NCBI RefSeq assembly: GCF_025602895.1
Contig: NW_026516225.1
Coordinates: forward strand, 248,001 to 312,000
Origin: Polychytrium aggregatum
Lineage: Eukaryota > Chytridiomycota > Chytridiomycetes > Polychytriales
DNA length: 64,000 nt
Direction of reading: 5' to 3'
Shown here: positions 3,585 to 21,094 of the stretch, in pieces
Position numbering within the stretch: the first letter of the stretch is position 1
Layout of the letters: the number at the start of each line of letters is the position of its first letter
The notes under the pieces: generated by a model
The model's input: only the letters and a program-made list of their open reading frames with translations
The model's database searches: none
What the model was told of the DNA's origin: nothing
Made by a program: the position numbers and the translations under genes

Positions 3585-4570
3585 AACCCGGCCAGCTTTG
3601 GCCGCTGGCTCTGTCCATGAACTTGAGGCTGGAGTCGCCCCGGATTGTGTTTGTCGTGGTGGTGTTTGTGTGTCGCAAAAATAGGCATTTGCTTGCAAAT
3701 CCCAAGAACCGGCAGCAGCCCCGCTCCCCTTTTCTGCTTGCCTCATCTCCGTATCTTTCCCCTCCCCCATCGGCGACCTGGCCTGCACCGTGGTGCGCTG
3801 GACACTTCTGGTCCGTTTCTGACCCCCCCCCCTCACCTCAGCCGCATCCGAGCGTATCTGGACGCTGCCTGGCCCTTCTCCATCTTGCAACACCCTCATT
3901 ACATTCTGGCATCTGCTCCAAAACCAACACACCACTTCCAAAACCAACACACCAAGCCATCCCGCTTTCCATGGATGTCCAATGGAAAGCCGCAGCGAGC
4001 TGGCGGCCAACAGGTATGAGATCCATGCCGATCTGAACAACGTCGGGAAATCGTCTTGCTTCCTCAGCCGGCCCCGTTGCCAGCCTGTTGGTAGATTCAT
4101 GGCGGGTCTCGGGCTGGCATCGGCACGACTTCTCCACAGCCCACCCTCCCCGTCATCTGCCCATGCGGTCAACACCTGGCTCGACTCGCTGGCTTCCACC
4201 TGGCTGCTGCTTCGTGGAGACCCTTGCCGCCCACGGCCTACGTCCTGCTGATCCAATTCGGCTGGGCTAGACCGCACTGCATCGGGCTCCGCTGCCCGCC
4301 ACAATCAAACCCCCCCCTCCAATCCCTTCCGTCTCGTCTCAGCGACCGGAACGACGACCCGATTCGCTTCTTTCCTTGCCTCGTTCACTTCGCTTGTCTT
4401 GCTTGCCTCGTCTACTTCGTTTGCCCCCCTCGACATACTCGTCCCCTAACGCATCCGCATCCGAACGTATCTACACCCTCGCTGCGGCCTCAACCGACTT
4501 GCCTCACCTCGCCTCGCCCATTTCCGAACCGCTGCCGCTCGTGCTTGGCGCATTCCCCCGGCCTTTCCAA
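3585..4570. other. Intergenic region upstream of the apyrase gene
   Basis: About 1 kb, strongly C/T-rich near the downstream start, as in many fungal 5' leaders. A frame open upstream of the apyrase ATG (from 4376) is pyrimidine-rich and probably untranslated. Nothing else is supported. Confidence 0.45.
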
Positions 4571-6707
4571 ATGGCCATGCCTTTCAATTCTAAAGTAAAG
4601 TTCGTCAACTTCCGGGTCGTCTTGGCGATCGTCCTTTCCCTGTGCTTCGGCATTGGATATCTGATCCTCACAAGCTTTTCGAGGTCAAGCTCGAGTGCCT
4701 CCGCTCGCCATCCGAAGCCGCACGCCGGAGCCCATGACTCGGACGCATCGACCGGCGGTGCGCCGCTTCCGAAACCCACGTCGCTCCCGCCGCTGATCGA
4801 GGCTGGGTCGGTCTGGCCCGATCCACACTTGCTGGACCTGGGCCCGCAAATCCGGCCGATCCCCGTCCCCGACGACGCCGCCGCTCTTGAACAGAAACCC
4901 GGCAGCTGGGCAAAGTACCGACACTACGCCGTCTTGATCGACGCCGGAAGCTCGGGGTCGCGGGTCATGATCTACTCGTGGAAGAGCCCGTACTGGACCC
5001 AGGCCAGGGCCAGAGTCGATCCTGCCTTCGAGACAGGCGAGTGGATCGAGCTCGAGAAGGGCGACGAGGCCGGTGTCCGGTGGCAGTTCAAGGAAGACCC
5101 CGGTAGGCTTGCTGCTCGATCGTCGGTGCATTCCGGCCACGGCCGGGAACGTCGTGGGTCACGTCGTTGCAATGTGGGCTGCCATGGTGTGTCTCTTCGA
5201 TGGTCCTCGACCTTGTCGATCGATATTGAGCCCAGCCTCGGTTGCATCCCAGGTATCTCGTCGTACGGCGACAAGCCCGAACAGGTCGGCGAGCATCTAA
5301 AGCCTCTGATGGATCTCGCAGCCTCGGTCGTGCCAAGATCGCAACACGAGCAGACGCCGGTCTATCTCTTTGCCACCGCCGGCATGCGCCTGCTCACAAA
5401 CCAGCAGCAGCGCCGCATCATGGACAATACGTGCGACTATATCCGATCAGGCTACTCGTTTTCGACAGCAGGCGGATGCAATCGGCACTTTCGAGTGATC
5501 TCGGGCGAGCTCGAGGGCATCTTTGGCTGGATAGCCGTGAACTACCTGCTGAATGGGTTTCCCCAAGAGATGCAGCCCCGGCCACCCTCGCATTCGGCAG
5601 AGAAGCTTGCCGACAGCGACCCCAAGCACACCTTTGGCTTCCTGGACATGGGTGGAGCGTCGACGCAGATTGCATTCCAGCCCACCGCCAAGATGGCACA
5701 CCAGCACCGCAACGATCTGGTTCGGGTGCAGCTCCGGACCCTTGGTGGGCACGACCGCGACTATGACGTCTTTGTGAGTACCTTCCTGGGCTTTGGCATG
5801 AATGAGGCCCGCCGGCGATACACTGAGCGGCTCGTGAGCCCGCATCTCCGAAACCCCAAATCTCGACTGCGAGTCCATCCGACAGGCGGGCGCAGCGACG
5901 ATGCGTCCCGTGCCGATCCCGACCCACCCAGCTCGCCGGACAACCTGACGATCATCGACCCATGTCTGCCCAAGGGGTTCTTGCACCAGGCACAGGATGG
6001 CGTCGTGCTGCGCGGAAGCGGCAACTTTCGACATTGCCGAATGAGCGTCATTCCTCTCCTCAACAAGGCCATGCCCTGCTCCGAGAATCCCTGTCTGTTC
6101 AACGGCGTACATGCGCCGATCGAAGATTTTTCGCTCCACCAGTTCATCGGTGTCTCCGAGTACTGGTACACCCCTGCGGATGCCTACCAGCTCGGCGGCA
6201 AGTACGACTATCGCAAGTTCAGGAAGGCCACGATCGAGTTCTGCAGCATGCCCTGGAGCGACATCCAGGCACGGCATCAGCGCGGGCAGTGGCCGCGCCA
6301 CGACAATCATCGCCTGGCCTCCCAGTGCTTCCGCAGCGTCTGGCTCATGGCCATCTTGCATGTTGGCTTTGAGATTCCCAAGGACATTGAAGTGCCCGTG
6401 TCTGTCAACGCAACTGGGCCGGAGCCCCGACTCGGGGCCGAAGCATCCGCCGGCAGCACCAGCGAGGATGAAGTCGAGGATGCCGGCACCGGGCCGTCGT
6501 CCAGCGACCCGAGCAACAGCCCTATTTCCTCAGGCCGGAACGGCACCTGGACACAGTTCCAGAGTATCAACGAGGTCGAAGATTTCAGCGCGAGCTGGAC
6601 ACTAGGCGCTGCGCTGATCCTGGCATCGAACACAATCCCGAGAAACCACGGATGGAGCGAGGATAGCAAGCCCAAGGACGACACTCTGCGCGAGCAGCAG
6701 CAGCAGC

Positions 6708-6744
<37 letters not shown>

Positions 6745-7120
6745 GCAAAACCCACAACCGTCCGACTTGAGTGCCCATTCGCAACCGGTAACCACAGCAA
6801 CGTCTGCACCAGGGTCAGACTCCTCTGGAAACCATACGCTTTGGTATGCGCTTGGACTTGGTCTCGCAGCGATCGGTCTGGTTCTCCTGGTCCGCACTGC
6901 CACGAACGATGCCAAGCGGCGGCGGCGGAAGCTGAGCGGGCCGCCGTCGCTGATCCAAGCCGGCATGGCCACGTCGTTTGGTCTCGGCGGCGGCAGTAGC
7001 AGCAGCTTCACGCACGGGCCTTTGGGCAGCGCAAGCGCCGGTCTCCTCGCTGACATGCCAGCGGCTTCGGATGCGGGCGAGCAGGTCATCTTTGTGGATG
7101 ACTGGAAGCGGACGGTCTGA
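4571..7120 (+). CDS. GDA1/CD39-family nucleoside phosphatase (Golgi apyrase type, Ynd1/ENTPD4-like)
   Basis: Exons 4571-5102 and 5253-7120 (150-nt phase-1 intron without an in-frame stop) give 799 residues. The family hydrolyses nucleoside di- and triphosphates in the Golgi lumen, which sustains nucleotide-sugar import for glycosylation. All apyrase conserved regions are visible: ACR1 DAGSSGSR at about 124, ACR2 ATAGMRLL at about 217, ACR3 GELEGIFGWIAVNYLL at about 261, ACR4 LDMGGASTQIAF at about 307, and the C-terminal SWTLGAALILASN at about 625. VSTFLGFGMNEARRRY follows ACR4; the GTGAGT there is not a splice site because this motif is conserved. There is an N-terminal signal anchor (about 14-34) and a second membrane helix (about 706-727), as in Ynd1/ENTPD4. 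Between ACR5 and helix 2 lies a run of about 20 Gln. The ATG at 4571 is preferred over an upstream one at 4376. Confidence 0.9.
6692..6748 (+). repeat. CAG/CAA trinucleotide run coding poly-Gln
   Basis: In-frame CAG then CAA codons give about 20 consecutive Gln in the apyrase, between the catalytic domain and the C-terminal membrane helix. Confidence 0.9.
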
Positions 7121-10386: not shown

Positions 10387-12995
10387 ATGATCCTCGACAG
10401 CAACGGAAACATCACCCATCTCAACATCCTGGTCTTTGGCCCCGCTTTTGTTGGCAAGACCACCCTGATTCACACCTTTCTGCAGATGCAGCGACCAAAA
10501 TCCCGCATCAACAGCGGTGCTTCCGCCGAGTCGTGCTATCTGGGCTCGTACGATCCCACCATCGAAAACTTTTACCAACTGCAGTACGTGGTCGTCCCTC
10601 AGTCTGCTGCCCGTGAGGCAAATGCCGCCCAACAGGTCGTTGGCGACAACGGCATCGATCCGATCCTGCCGCCAGACATCCAGATCAACGACAGCCATGA
10701 GCTCCACAAACGCATCACCCTCAACATCATCGACGCCGGCGGCCATCCGTGCTATAGCAAGCTCTGGCCCTCGCTCATCACCAGCGCCGACGCCTTCATG
10801 CTCGTATACGATGTCGGCGACAAAGCCTCGTTTGACTCCATGTGGACCTTTTATCGCATCATCGTCGAGACCAAGTGGATCCAGCCCGAGTACATCCCCG
10901 CCATCATGGTCGGCAACATGGTCGACACGGTCGCTTCCGATGGAGTAACGACCCAATCAACCCGCCGCCCCCGCATGGTTCCACTCACCACCGGCCGCCA
11001 AATGGCCGACATTCTAAAGATCAAGTTCTCGGAAACCACCGCCCTGGCCCCTGTTGCTGTCGCCCGCTGCTTCTCGGAGCTGATTTCCGCTGCCCAGGCC
11101 AAGACTGACGCCAGATTGCAAATCGGAAACCTATCCCTGACACCAGCCCCTGTCAGGGTTCGCCGTGTGCGATCTGCGACCGAGCTGCGGTCCCAGAGTG
11201 CCGATCTCAATCAGTCCGATGGCTCGGCCGATGATTCTGCCTCGGAAGAGTCGCCCGTAGGCATCGACCGAACAATGGAGAATCGCAACAACCATCCGTC
11301 GCCGACGTCGTGCCACGGGCCGAGCGATCGGGCCGAGTCGGTGCGCTTCCCGACCCTTTCCTCCACCACATCGTCAAAGCGGGATTCGAACGTCTCGTCC
11401 AACTCGTCCAACTGCGTAAGTCTCGACAGATCCGTCTCGGCTGATCTGTATCGGCGGATTTGTATTGCTACTGACCATCGCCTCGCTGTTTGATTCACGC
11501 GACTCTCTCTCACTCCTCTCCTTCCCTTTCCCTCATCGTTCTAACAACGCCCGCTCAACAGGCCAACAGCCGCACAAGCGGCTCTACCGGCTCCTCCACG
11601 AGCAACGGCCGCAAGCTCTACAATTCTCTCATGGCACCCGCCTCAGCCGGCTCGATCCGTGCCCAGCGCGACCAGCTGTTTTCGGCATGGCGGACCTGCA
11701 AGCGAGAGTCCAGGACTGCGTCTGGCAATCAACAGCTCCGGATCTTCTTTGCCACGCACAAGGAAATGCAGAACCGGACGTCGTACTTTTCTACCTCGAC
11801 CGGCTACTCGAGTCGCTCCTCCAACTCGTCGGGGACAATGTATCGCCAGGACTCCCATCAGGGCTACAGGGTCTCTACGGCGCAATCGGCTTCGGGCCAG
11901 AGTCAGCGCACCGACACTCTCCGAGACGACCAGCCCTGGCCCACGACTGCCCGCACCCCTTCGGCGGCTTCGTCGGTAGTCTCGCCCGTTGGCGGCATGG
12001 TCACGGCTCGCAAGTTCAGCGCCCCCGATGTCTCGCAGGACTATGATCGTCTTGACCAGCCACCTCGTCCTGGCTCGACTGCCGTGTTCCGACCCCACGA
12101 CTCTGCCATCCACATGGGCGACGTCGAGCACCACCAAATCAACACCAAGCCTCCCGTCAACCACAACGGCAATAGCATACGGTTCATGAAGGCCCCGCAG
12201 ACCTCTCACACGTCGCTCCGCATCCAAGTCCCCACATACAACCCCGATGCGCCGCCGTCATCGTCGTCCCCATCCATGAGCGGCCATTTCCAGACAGCAA
12301 CACCGCCTCCGTCGTACTTTGAACACAAGCGTGTCGAGAGCCCACTGGCATCCCGGTTCCGATCCGCACGCCGCCCCAGTGCTGATGCCATCCTACTCCA
12401 GACCACCGAGTTAGAGGCTGCCCAGCAGATGGTGCGCTCGACCCCGACTCCCCCGCCGCTCACCCCAAATCGCTCCCAGGAGCACCTCTACCACCCTTTG
12501 CTCCGCAACGGACGAGCGTCGCACGGCCGCGGCTCGGGCGGCCGTCTGGCCTCGCTGCTGACGACCATTCAGAACTACGTCGACGAAACCCAAGGCCAAC
12601 TCTCGCCTGTCGCCATCGACCGCATGGAGCACTCCATGTTTGAGTTTCCTATCCAGTCCGACCCTGCGGGTGGTCGCAGTGACTACTCCCATCCTACCTC
12701 GCGAGTGCCCTCGCGGTCCTCGCCGTTGGTGAGGGAGGTGACTGGAGACCAGCCCGATCAACCGAGCGAGCCCAGCCCAACCATCGGACCCTTTGCCGCA
12801 ATCATAGACACGCCTGAATGGGGACCCAGCACCCTGGGCGAGACCGACGAAGAGGTCAGCCGAACGTACTCTATTCTCCTCAACAGCGCCGAGGAGACCT
12901 CTGAGTATTTCGACGACGACGACGACGATCCCTTTGACCAGAGCATGATCGTCCAGGATCAGCTCAACAAGGGTCTGGGAGGCTCGAACTACTAG
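10387..12995 (+). CDS. Atypical Ras-like GTPase with long Ser-rich C-terminal extension
   Basis: Exons 10387-11415 and 11562-12995 (GTAAGT..CAG, phase 0) give 820 residues. The first 240 form a Ras-like G domain: G1 GPAFVGKTT (18-26), G2 YDPTIENFY (about 55-63, closely matching the Ras/Rap effector loop), G3 DAGGH (116-120), G4 NMVD (177-180) and G5 ETTAL (about 215). Three features are odd. G3 reads DAGGH rather than DTAGQ, so the Gln61 position is His. G4 lacks the usual Lys of NKxD. About 36 extra residues sit between the switch I Thr and G3. The rest is a low-complexity Ser/Pro/Thr region with an acidic end (DDDDDPFDQ) and no CAAX box, so lipid anchoring by prenylation is not expected. 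Nucleotide exchange or hydrolysis may be altered. Biological role unknown. Confidence 0.82.
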
Positions 12996-17192: not shown

Positions 17193-20100
17193 TCAGCGGG
17201 ATGTGACGGTATTGATTCCGCAACGGGCTCTATCGACAAGGGTCTGGTAATCAGGAGTCGGCAGCTCGTTGGCAATAGCCAGAGCCTCGCTGTAGTGTCG
17301 GAGTGCATCTTCGTCTGTGCCAGATTGCGAGCTGAAGAGATCGCCAAAGGCAAGGTGGGCCTGGGCGATATCGGGGTCAAGTGTTGGCTCATCAATCTCC
17401 AACAGAATGTCGAGGGATTCTTGAATCAGCTGCGATGCGGCGTCGAAACGGCCCTGCTTGGTGGCGATTTCGCCCGACGCCATCAGGATGGTTGCAATCT
17501 CGTCCGTCTCGCGCTTGCCGTGCGCCTTGATACTCGTAGCGAGTGCTTCTTCATAGAGATTCTGTGCCTCTGCCAGACGGCCCTGGTCGGATTCGACCTT
17601 TGCCAGACTTGCGATCGTGTCGGCAACGTCGGGGTGGTCGCGTGTACCATGAATATATGTTTCGATACCGAGTGCCTCCTGGTAGAGCGCACGCGCCTCG
17701 TCGTAGTGTTCCAGTGTACGGGCAATGTCGGCCATGCTCGACAGGGCTGATACGGCATCGGGGTGCTCCCTCGTGCCGTTGATAATGACGTCCAGATCAA
17801 GGATGTCGCGAAAGCGGCTGAAGGCCTCTTCAAGGTTACCTTTCTGCTCGACGATATCGGCGATCTTGCGCAAGGTCGCCGAAACAAGATAGTGCTCCCT
17901 GGTGCCGAGGATTGCAGTGTCGATCTCAAGGACTTCTTCATATAGCCTTTGGGCCTCGTCAAGATCGCCTTCGGACTCTTTGATATCAGCGATGCGAATC
18001 TGAATGTTAGAAATCGCCCGATGCATCTTGGTTCCATAGGCCTTGAGCAAAGTGGCCTGAGCTTCTTGGTAGAGCACAAGGGCTTCGTCATCGTCATCCT
18101 GGGAACAGAGTACTTGGGCTATTTTGACCAAGGTTTCGGCGACCGAAGGATGTTCTCTCGTGCCATAGACCGCAGTTTCGATACTGAGAGTCTTTCGGAA
18201 GAGATCGAGGGCTTTGTCGTTGTCGCCTTGGGATTGAAGCACCTCTGCGATGCCGCTTATAGCCGAGGCAACTTCGGGGTGCTCCTCAGTACCAAAAATC
18301 TTCAGGCGGATGTCATACAGCTTTTGGAAATGAGTGAGCGCCTCTTCGTGTCGGCCCTGCGAGTGGATGATTCGGGCAAAGAGCGCAGTGGTCTTGGCCA
18401 CGTCAGGATGATCCTCTCTGCCGTAGAGCTGCATTTCGATCTCCTGGCACTCTTTGCAGCACTTCAGTGCCTCTTCGTTGTTGCCTTGCGTATGCAAAAG
18501 GCCAGCCATACTGTACAACCCCGAGGAAATTGACGGGTGCCTTCGTGTGCCATACACCCCGACCGCGGTGGCCATGATCTCCTGGTACAGCTGCAGAGCG
18601 TCATCAAGGCGCCCTTGGATTTTGTAGATATCGGCGATGCTGTACAGGGTTGCAAGAGTCGACGGATGCTTCCAATTGCCGTAGAACTGCTCATCAATTT
18701 GAAGACATTCGTTGAAGAGTCGAAGCGCTTCATCGTACTGGCCCCGCATGAAGTTAATGTAGGCGATGCTGTCGAGGGTCACGGAGATGTCGCGGCTCGC
18801 CGACATTCCCTGGACCATTTTTTGGATCTCGAGAGCCTCCTGGAAATGGGCAAGGGCCGCATCGTATTTCCCAAGCGATAATTCCACGCTGCCGATTTGT
18901 TGGACCGTCCTCGCAACCGACGGATGCTCCTTTGTGCCAAAGATCCGGACTCGAATCTCCAGAGCCTCTTGATGGTGTCCCAGAGCTTCGGTGTGTCTGC
19001 CGAGACTGAGAGCGACGTCGCCGAGACCCTGGATGGCACTTGCAACATCGACGTGGCTTCGCGTGCCATAGAAGGCCTCGGATCGCTGTACGTTCTCCGC
19101 ACTCACTTCCATCGCCTTCGCGAACAAGCCGCGGCTATCAGCCAGTTTTGCGATACAGCAGTCGATCCTTGAGTGCAGCGGCTTTGAATATCGCTGAGGA
19201 ACTACTGCCTTGGAGAAGCAGTCAAGATGCTCGAGAAGATAAGGCTTGTCGAGCAGCCCCGCCAAGTCAATCAGCGCCATGCCGGTGACATTTTCGATTT
19301 CATCAGGCTTCAGTTCGTTGTGACTTTTGACAAACTCTCGAGCGACCTGCTGGGTGAGCGAATGGGTCGAGTACACTCTCTCGCCGTCGTTTCTGAGGAG
19401 ACCACTCTGGAGCACCATCGTCACGAGGTTGGATACTGTGCACGAACATGTAGACTCAGTAAAGCGCCACCGACAGGGGGCCAATCGCATCGCTCACCCA
19501 CACATTCATCCATGCAGCACAACTCACCATCGTTCCTGACTCCCAATTTTTGTGCGATCGCTTCGATTATCTCCGGCTGGATGTTGGTCGGCGCCACCAG
19601 AGTGAGGGCACCAAAGAGCATGGCTGCCTCGATGCCCTCGTTTCCTCGGCTCACCAGCGAGTCCATTGCTAGATCCACAATCACCTTGAGCGACGACCGC
19701 GTCTGGTCCTCGCCCTCTTCCTCCTCCAGAGCCCCCGCAAACTCTTCCTCGATCACGTAGAGGGGAGTAGGGCAATTTTCAGCATAGGTGATGAACGTCT
19801 GGATCACAAGCGGATATCCGTCAATCTTGACCACGATTCTCTTGAGAGTCTCCAGTGCCTCGGTCGACCTGGTTCTCTCGGCGATCAGTGGCGACGCCGA
19901 CAATATGTAGTCGAGCGCGATGGTGTTGTCCCAAGTGCCAAGACGCAGTGGGGCGTGCCCGTATCCAGTGATGTGGGTTCCAAGTGCACTGGCGAAGGTA
20001 CCAGGAGGCAGCGAGGCCAGCCGGGTCGTCACCACCACATCGCCCGCAAAGCCGAGTGATCTGGAATGCTCAAACACAGAGTCGACCACGCCGATGTCAT

Positions 20101-21094
20101 CGACATTGTCGAGTACCAGGAGATAGCCGTGGGTGTTGGCGAGGAACATCGAGGCATGCTCCTTGATCACATCGGGCTTGATGCCAGGGAACATGTCGAT
20201 GAGTCCATCGAGGGCAGTCGACTCGGTTGAGCAGTTGAGCCAGAAGACCTGGCTGTACTGCGGTTTGATGCCGATGGTCTCGGCTTTGATAGCTTTGAGG
20301 TCGTCCTTGTTGCTCACATCGAGAGTGCCCATCATGAAACGCAGGAATTGGCGGGCGAGGACAGATTTGCCCATGCCACCCATACCGGAGATGACGGCGC
20401 GGCCCGTCAGGGTGACCTGACGGAGGAGCGAGTCGAGGTGGGCGGGATCGACCCGGAGCTTGGAGTCGCAAAAGTATTTGCGATATATGGTGTTCCTAAT
20501 GTCCGAGTCGAGTTCGATGGGATGGACAAGGTTGAGGATGCGATAGATTCGCATGTAAACGAGGTCGGGGTAGATTCCAAACATCTGGATCTGGCTCAGG
20601 CGAGACACAGTTTCCCGAAGCGAGCCGAACCTGGGATCGCCAGGGATGGTGACGTTTTGGAGCCAGAACGGGCGCCACACCTCTTGATCGCCATTATTCG
20701 TGAGACTGAACACGCACAGGGGCATGATAGAGAGCGGCTGTCCTTGGTCGATGAGGCGGAGGGCGGTCTGCAGCTCGATAAGGGTCTTGTCTTGCTGACC
20801 CGACTCGGCTTTGCGCATCATCGAGTCCACGGCTGCTTGGCTGAGAACGGCAACAACGACCTTGCTCCTGGATAGGGCGAGCTGCAAGTTGTTCCAGGCG
20901 TTGGCATCATCGAGAGAGTCATCCTCGTGGAAAATGGTGAGCGGCTGGCCGTATCGACGGAGGGCGATCGAGGGGAGCATCTCTGTCAGGGCCCCAACGA
21001 TGGTGGCGTCGGCTTCGGCCTGGCTGGAGAGGAACAGGGCATGCTCTGGTCCGTGGATAGGATAGGCGCTGAGCTGGTCGCTTGCGGAGGCCAT
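17193..21094 (-). CDS. TIR-NB-ARC-TPR receptor (NLR/STAND type)
   Basis: Minus-strand exons 21094-19528 and 19435-17193 (GTGAGT..CAG, phase 1) give 1,269 residues. Residues about 15-165 resemble a TIR domain: HALFLSS strand, FHEDDSLDD (BB-loop region), LALSRSKVVVAVLS, and an Glu in LIEL (107) where the NADase Glu of TIRs lies. Residues about 220-520 are an NB-ARC/STAND ATPase: P-loop GMGGMGKS (237-244), Walker B YLLVLDNVDD (324-333), sensor VVVTTR (353-358) and a GYPLVI helix (426-431). From about 600 to 1,230 there are about 13-14 kinesin-light-chain-like TPRs of 42 residues carrying the recurring YGTREHP signature. Such proteins are single-chain signal-sensing switches: ligand on the repeats, nucleotide-dependent assembly, TIR output (NAD cleavage in plants and bacteria). 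The ATG at 21094 has a better context than one 24 codons upstream. Ligand and output are inferred. Confidence 0.87.

Follow-up and report, generated by a model that had tools for sequence, protein, structure and literature searches.

What does a protein that joins a TIR domain, an NB-ARC ATPase and a tail of tetratricopeptide repeats (TPRs) do in a genome of fungal appearance? The question is raised by a gene on the minus strand at positions 17193-21094 of a 64,000-nucleotide stretch of genomic DNA (positions 248,001 to 312,000 of contig NW_026516225.1; this whole stretch is called the window). The gene probably encodes an innate immune receptor of NLR type (STAND), in a host that is itself probably a zoosporic fungus, and belongs to a large repertoire in which a shared TIR cassette is combined with private TPR sensors. 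A preliminary description of the window had read TIR, NB-ARC and 13-14 TPRs in one chain of 1,269 residues, and this architecture is borne out by a two-exon gene model, by the predicted fold and by the Pfam family TPR_12. Exon 1 (19528..21094, on the minus strand as are all features of the gene) encodes residues 1-522 with the TIR domain and most of NB-ARC and constitutes the homogenised cassette of the family. It is followed by a phase 1 intron of 92 nt (19436..19527, GTGAGT...CACAG) and by exon 2 (17193-19435), the start of which (19083..19435) encodes the end of the NB-ARC module up to the TPRs. Because exon 1 is under purifying selection relative to each of 17 paralogs (ratio of nonsynonymous to synonymous substitution rates, dN/dS, of 0.32-0.49) and because a GT(A/G)AG donor is kept at the same place in 19 of 20 family genes compared, the window's included (the exception is L027), the gene model is not a product of chance. 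In 27 of 30 family loci, again including the window's, both halves keep the same order across the conserved intron, with a separate open stretch after residue ~522; the divergent member L039 encodes TIR through TPRs in a single unbroken frame of 1,499 residues.

The TIR domain comprises residues ~15-190 (20525..21052). Its AlphaFold2 model (pLDDT 83.8, pTM 0.81) was compared with the PDB by Foldseek and by VIA-align, and in both cases all 50 listed rows were TIR or TIR-containing entries, so that the N-terminus is predicted, as had been supposed, to adopt the flavodoxin-like TIR fold of alternating beta-strands and alpha-helices. Searching PDB sequences with a TIR profile of the family gave 21 matches, every one of them to SARM1, TIR-1 or Roq1. 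Glu107 (codon 20774..20776), which the preliminary description had placed at the catalytic-helix position, is paired in the hmmsearch alignment with the helix alphaC Glu of SARM1 (KDWVHKEIVTALS), and Glu occupies this column in 32 of the 35 family rows that reach it, making it a candidate catalytic residue. Pfam TIR_2 matches 12 of 36 family rows at E<=0.01, and a member on contig C46 reaches 35.4 bits. As neither Pfam cut-off is quite reached by the window protein on its own (TIR_2, 21 bits against 28; NB-ARC, 21.6 bits against 23.5), the domain assignment is carried by the family, by the fold and by the TPR_12 match (E=2.7e-88).

The NB-ARC ATPase (residues ~217-522, 19529..20446; near-threshold Pfam match, exon-1 model and family profile) contains the P-loop GMGGMGKS (residues 237-244, 20363..20386), the Walker B motif LLVLDNVDD and the sensor VVVTTR, all found as first described. 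Conservation across the family is high at the corresponding columns: K243 in 27 of 28 rows, D329 in 28 of 28, R358 of the TTR motif in 26 of 28, and P428, in a GLPL-like motif, in 27 of 28. The motif THSL in early exon 2 holds what we take to be the MHD-like His. A model of exon 1 (pLDDT 82) has the tetramer of the plant TNL RPP1 as its best PDB match, plant NLRs (NRC2 and ZAR1 among them) or CED-4 fill its first 24 Foldseek rows, and the NB-ARC profile of the family finds ZAR1 as its best PDB match (E=1.9e-4). These comparisons predict an NB-ARC fold of the APAF-1/CED-4/plant NLR type. The TPR array (residues ~645-1250, 17253..19070) is made up of 13-14 units with a period of exactly 43 residues, and not of 42 as initially reported; the repeat motif occurs 13 times, at 645, 688, 731 ... 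1161, and a hidden Markov model (HMM) built from the units of the window protein counts 14.

When the genome assembly (64.7 Mb in 418 contigs) was searched with the TIR-NB-ARC part of the window protein, 97 matches were obtained, which resolved to 76 loci on dozens of contigs. The best NB-ARC match, L053 (C146:143093-143866; 57.7 bits with Pfam NB-ARC), is another TIR-NB-ARC-TPR gene, located on the same contig ~104 kb before the start of the window, and brings the family to 77 loci. TPR units were present in 42 of the 45 loci for which DNA was read, the others being cut short (L043, L049) or lying outside the scan (L006). Near-identical copies, presumably haplotypes, account for many of the loci, and 21 distinct TPR arrays were found among 30 fetched loci, with L037 and L038 counted as one; extrapolated from this ratio, there are perhaps ~50 distinct genes. 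Pfam NB-ARC at E<=0.001 gives only 6 matches genome-wide as against the 77 family loci, and therefore standard profiles miss most of the family.

From pairwise comparison of the 30 fetched loci it is evident that the homogenised region is confined to the cassette. Identity of 85% or more was found in exon 1 (1,200 bp or longer) for 240 of 435 pairs, whereas the TPR region (700 bp or longer) reached it in 12 and the 5' flank (900 bp or longer) in 17 of the 435. Once 9 loci had been dropped as duplicates, 21 loci and 210 pairs remained (L032 was kept though its 5' side equals that of L029), and exon 1 was at least 90% identical in 98 of these pairs. In 84 of the 98, the 1.4 kb before the start codon shares no stretch of 80% identity; the 5' edge is blurred in the other 14, which share some flank (less than 300 bp in 11 pairs, at least 300 bp in 3). 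Past exon 1, matches of at least 80% identity cover a median of 68% of the first 330 bp and a median of 9% of the TPR region (400-1400 bp), with more than 50% covered in 0 of 98 pairs. The tails are not wholly private, as short TPR patches of at least 80% DNA identity are common (median longest patch, 48 bp). Flank and coverage measures were preferred to a block-wise measure, which is distorted downstream by intron indels, and a downstream measure based on the furthest matching patch is dominated by the short TPR patches.

Synonymous divergence (dS), which together with dN was available for 22 of 251 pairs, shows the same uncoupling in both directions. In the pair L015/L018, dS is 0.083 in exon 1 and 2.3 in the TPRs; the reverse holds for L019/L024, L020/L026 and L012/L021, in which a TPR dS of 0.003 is found together with exon-1 values of 0.137, 0.052 and 0.037, respectively. 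In L013/L023 the 5' side is common (99.6%) and the 3' stretches (TPR and 3' flank) are unmatched, and in L019/L024 the TPR region and 3' flank are common (97.4% over 4.9 kb) and the 5' side differs. Read most simply, these alignments would reflect ectopic recombination or conversion with the cassette as its centre. Judged by its DNA matches, the window gene follows the rule of a shared head and a private tail: dozens of copies have a counterpart of bases 497-1567 of its exon 1 (72-81%), family members have one of nt 17-173 of exon 2 (73-82%), and past nt ~173 the search found only one 48-nt match and the segment 1748-1822 in four loci. This large, cassette-homogenised family is the striking part of the system, and it is invisible from one window.

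In order to see where the TPR units of the family differ, 340 matches were collapsed to 230 unique units and the entropy of 41 aligned columns was determined. The six most variable columns are 40, 11, 18, 21, 14 and 22. With G8 presumed to be column 17 and A20 column 29, columns 11, 14, 18, 21 and 22 are the canonical TPR positions 2, 5, 9, 12 and 13 under this anchor. Magliery and Regan (PMC1261162) named the seven most variable positions of the concave TPR face, and the variability in the family coincides with five of these seven ligand-face positions. The pattern fits diversified ligand binding without proving it. No claim of positive selection is made for the TPRs, in which synonymous sites are saturated and the repeat alignment is uncertain.

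A few members depart from the family pattern. The divergent L039, L041 and L042 have lost the Glu and the FLSYR motif and keep the P-loop Lys, and L040 keeps the Glu and has lost the P-loop Lys. On contig C46 (C46:284622-292500), L006 with an intact TIR Glu (ATG 286565, minus strand) and the Glu-less L041 with a degenerate TIR (ATG 288076, plus strand) stand head to head, ~1.5 kb apart; in the intact member an in-frame TGA is found just beyond the open frame 285000-286835, at the expected intron site. The arrangement resembles the plant pair RPS4/RRS1 and, as a single case, has the weight of an anecdote. Two members also lie tail to tail within 10 kb in L045 (C168:467000-476999), with a matching pair on C362. 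Swapping of N-terminal effectors was considered for genes in which the match starts near residue 125-137 and was rejected, as a TIR-matching upstream frame is present in all six genes examined (two in L045, and L046, L047, L048 and L049). A subtelomeric location was likewise unsupported: the contig end is 7-10 kb away for several loci, and neither TTAGGG nor TTTAGGG repeats were found in six contig-end stretches. Contigs C312 and C222 open with a tRNA-like gene recognised by eye (L063:1-73 and L067:1-73), ~7.6 kb from nearly identical family members, which may mark an assembly break or a repeat boundary. Other TIR proteins were encountered as well. In L002/L003 (C90:280526-283708, C320:9257-12439) and L007 (C223:602151-605345) an NPHP3_N/NACHT ATPase (E 5e-13 in L002, 7e-28 in L007) comes after a TIR-matching frame, so that TIR-NACHT proteins seem to exist alongside the TIR-NB-ARC family, and L001:1288-2493 (C386) encodes a TIR protein (TIR_2, E 2e-16) with a C-terminal region for which Pfam gives no match and in which, by eye, an IxPNGxDxWxRxxWE-like motif seems to recur.

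If the protein works as an NLR, its private TPR superhelix would bind or guard a ligand, the NB-ARC switch would then exchange nucleotide and assemble the TIR domains, and the TIRs brought together in this way would either cleave NAD+ or derive a signal from it, with regulated cell death or defence as the outcome. In its evolution, many different TPR sensors would have been joined to one cassette, which extends roughly from the ATG to the exon 1 boundary and whose copies would be held similar by ectopic gene conversion or recombination. We infer immunity, rather than another use, as the purpose of such a device. A more far-reaching version of this reading is tentative and rather doubtful. It takes the cassette for an evolved constant region, within which recombination keeps the receptors able to co-assemble, each locus contributing a private TPR variable region; L013/L023 and L019/L024 would be products of exchange, and the three Glu-less members and the one P-loop-less member, including the C46 pair, would be partners in sensor/executor relationships. 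If true, an early-branching fungus would possess a constant/variable immune repertoire with NLR pairing.

Several observations weigh against an enzymatic immune receptor. SARM1 has a Trp four residues before its Glu (KDWVHKE), where the window protein has K103, and this column of the family holds N, S, K, R, D or G and never W (29 of the 35 rows have Asn or Ser); as the Trp is not conserved, enzymatic activity is not to be taken for granted. In the window TIR the FLSYR motif has become FLSSQ, without its Tyr and Arg, and the Glu has been lost in three divergent paralogs. The exon-1 model reaches TM-scores of 0.24-0.37 (query length) with whole NLRs, whose domain arrangement it does not reproduce. 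TPRs in general vary strongly at positions 2, 5, 9, 12 and 13, the analysis identified no cell-death partner, and among the plant TIR-NBARC-TPR proteins tested in PMC9806590 only ZmTNP-IIa killed consistently. A TIR that serves as a non-enzymatic adaptor in the manner of animal adaptor TIRs, so that the receptors recruit other TIR proteins by TIR-TIR contact and no NAD+ is cleaved, is nevertheless unlikely in view of the Glu kept in 32 of 35 rows and of the PDB sequence matches, which are to SARM1, TIR-1 or Roq1 throughout (21 of 21). It is also not probable that the family serves allorecognition, that is self/non-self discrimination at fusion or mating, instead of defence against parasites: characterised fungal NLRs do govern heterokaryon incompatibility (PMC10197012, PMC12881547) and locus-private sensor arrays suit either role, whereas the near-identical TPR arrays of likely allelic pairs speak weakly against it, the pairs having been chosen by similarity.

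The history of the cassette could be read differently, too. Recent duplication and strong purifying selection might have made exon 1 alike without gene conversion, and the low exon-1 dN/dS (0.15-0.49 in the pairs calculated) agrees with this; yet synonymous sites are homogenised along with the rest in L015/L018, with the reverse in L019/L024, L020/L026 and L012/L021, and 84 of the 98 close pairs lack a similar 5' flank, so that we regard duplication without conversion as very unlikely. Errors of assembly or polishing among near-identical cassettes of a presumably duplicated, heterozygous genome could also imitate part of the homogenisation, which is a caution for the main reading as well: the 418 contigs carry many near-identical duplicate loci, and cassettes up to 99% alike present a classic risk of collapse or misjoin. 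Random errors would not be expected to leave the frame open with a dN/dS of 0.15-0.25, as the exon-1 differences in three same-array pairs do, and in L012/L021 and L020/L026 flanks and TPRs that are ~98-100% identical surround a more divergent cassette. There is little chance that the shared cassettes are an artefact in part, and conversion of a receptor cassette is preferred.

The early-diverging fungal host proposed from the window is also the probable one. Chitin_synth_2 has 71 genome matches (best, 3.9e-229), the weaker of which may be other glycosyltransferases (compare the bacterial controls), and the axonemal Radial_spoke family is matched at 3.9e-32. Chitin synthases together with a radial-spoke protein therefore suggest a fungus with flagellated zoospores, and other chitin-making flagellates are compatible as well. 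A search for Bac_rhodopsin, taken as a marker of Blastocladiomycota, gave no match, and as its control matched nowhere either, the result carries no weight. The neighbours of the gene in the window are ordinary: an open frame for a GDA1/CD39 nucleoside phosphatase (4376-7120, plus strand, E 4.8e-105) and one for a Ras-family GTPase (10387-11493, plus strand, E 1e-19).

The preliminary description had considered the system a candidate for an undescribed one, which does not hold for the architecture: TIR-NB-TPR proteins are known in plants, bacteria and fungi (PMC9806590), and TIR-NLRs are mentioned in Chytridiomycota (PMC9815663). Open-licence PMC full text, covered in two cases by the top 20 of 42 and of 2,697 papers, yielded no account of such a large TIR-NB-ARC-TPR family among zoosporic fungi or of the way its cassette evolves, and this expansion and mode of evolution are apparently unreported. 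A survey of 122 fungal proteomes, based on HMM searches at E 1e-4, listed as few as one NLR in Chytridiomycota species and none in Blastocladiomycota (PMC12258605), and an earlier one listed no NLRs in chytrids (PMC4986451); the low sensitivity of Pfam profiles may explain how surveys overlook such families. If the family holds up, a large TIR-NLR repertoire exists in flagellated fungi, outside the picture given by the surveys. An early-branching fungus may then have a sizeable innate immune repertoire, dozens of copies with one signalling head and different recognition tails, and both the cleavage of NAD+ by fungal TIRs and what the repertoire defends against become testable.

Among known systems, plant TNPs (TIR-NBARC-TPR, also XTNX, such as ZmTNP-IIa) have the same domain order, the TIR Glu, the NB-ARC P-loop and TTR and a TPR tail, and cell death caused by maize ZmTNP-IIa depends on the Glu and the P-loop; they differ in number, with one in Marchantia and four in Nicotiana benthamiana against 77 loci here (PMC9806590). 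The agreement with land-plant TNPs is one of architecture only. Plant TNL resistosomes (RPP1, Roq1, L6) share TIR and NB-ARC, as the best PDB match of the exon-1 model illustrates, and differ from the window protein in its 43-residue TPRs and by an identity of 12-17% to plant NLR rows. RPP1, Roq1 and L6 carry leucine-rich repeats where the window protein has TPRs. Bacterial STAND proteins likewise place TPR-type repeats after NB-ARC, and at least two weak bacterial relatives were among the matches listed in an NB-ARC profile scan of contigs: L061, a kinase-NB-ARC protein with a weak TPR_MalT match from a metagenome-assembled Clostridia genome, and L062, an NB-ARC-TPR protein of Nonomuraea. Their identity of 22-28% is limited to NB-ARC, and neither matches Pfam TIR at E<=0.001. 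Fungal HNWD (HET-NACHT-WD40) and NB-ARC-TPR NLRs (such as PLP-1) form large families with an N-terminal effector, a NOD and a repeat tail, and differ from the window protein in its TIR head; the HET domain (PF06985) had no match in the genome, and the control matched in none of 14 genomes either. In HNWD genes of Podospora it is the WD repeats that are exchanged and homogenised (PMC1805685), whereas here the exon for effector and NOD is homogenised and the repeats are private. In zebrafish NLR-B30.2 genes the NACHT part is made uniform within groups by gene conversion, and the sensor part follows another course and diversifies; the domains are others, the host is an animal and most of the genes lie on one chromosome arm (PMC4852459). 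By this analogy the fungal family would evolve somewhat like zebrafish NLRs, and, if true, the rule of a shared signalling module with private sensors would have a parallel in fishes and fungi.

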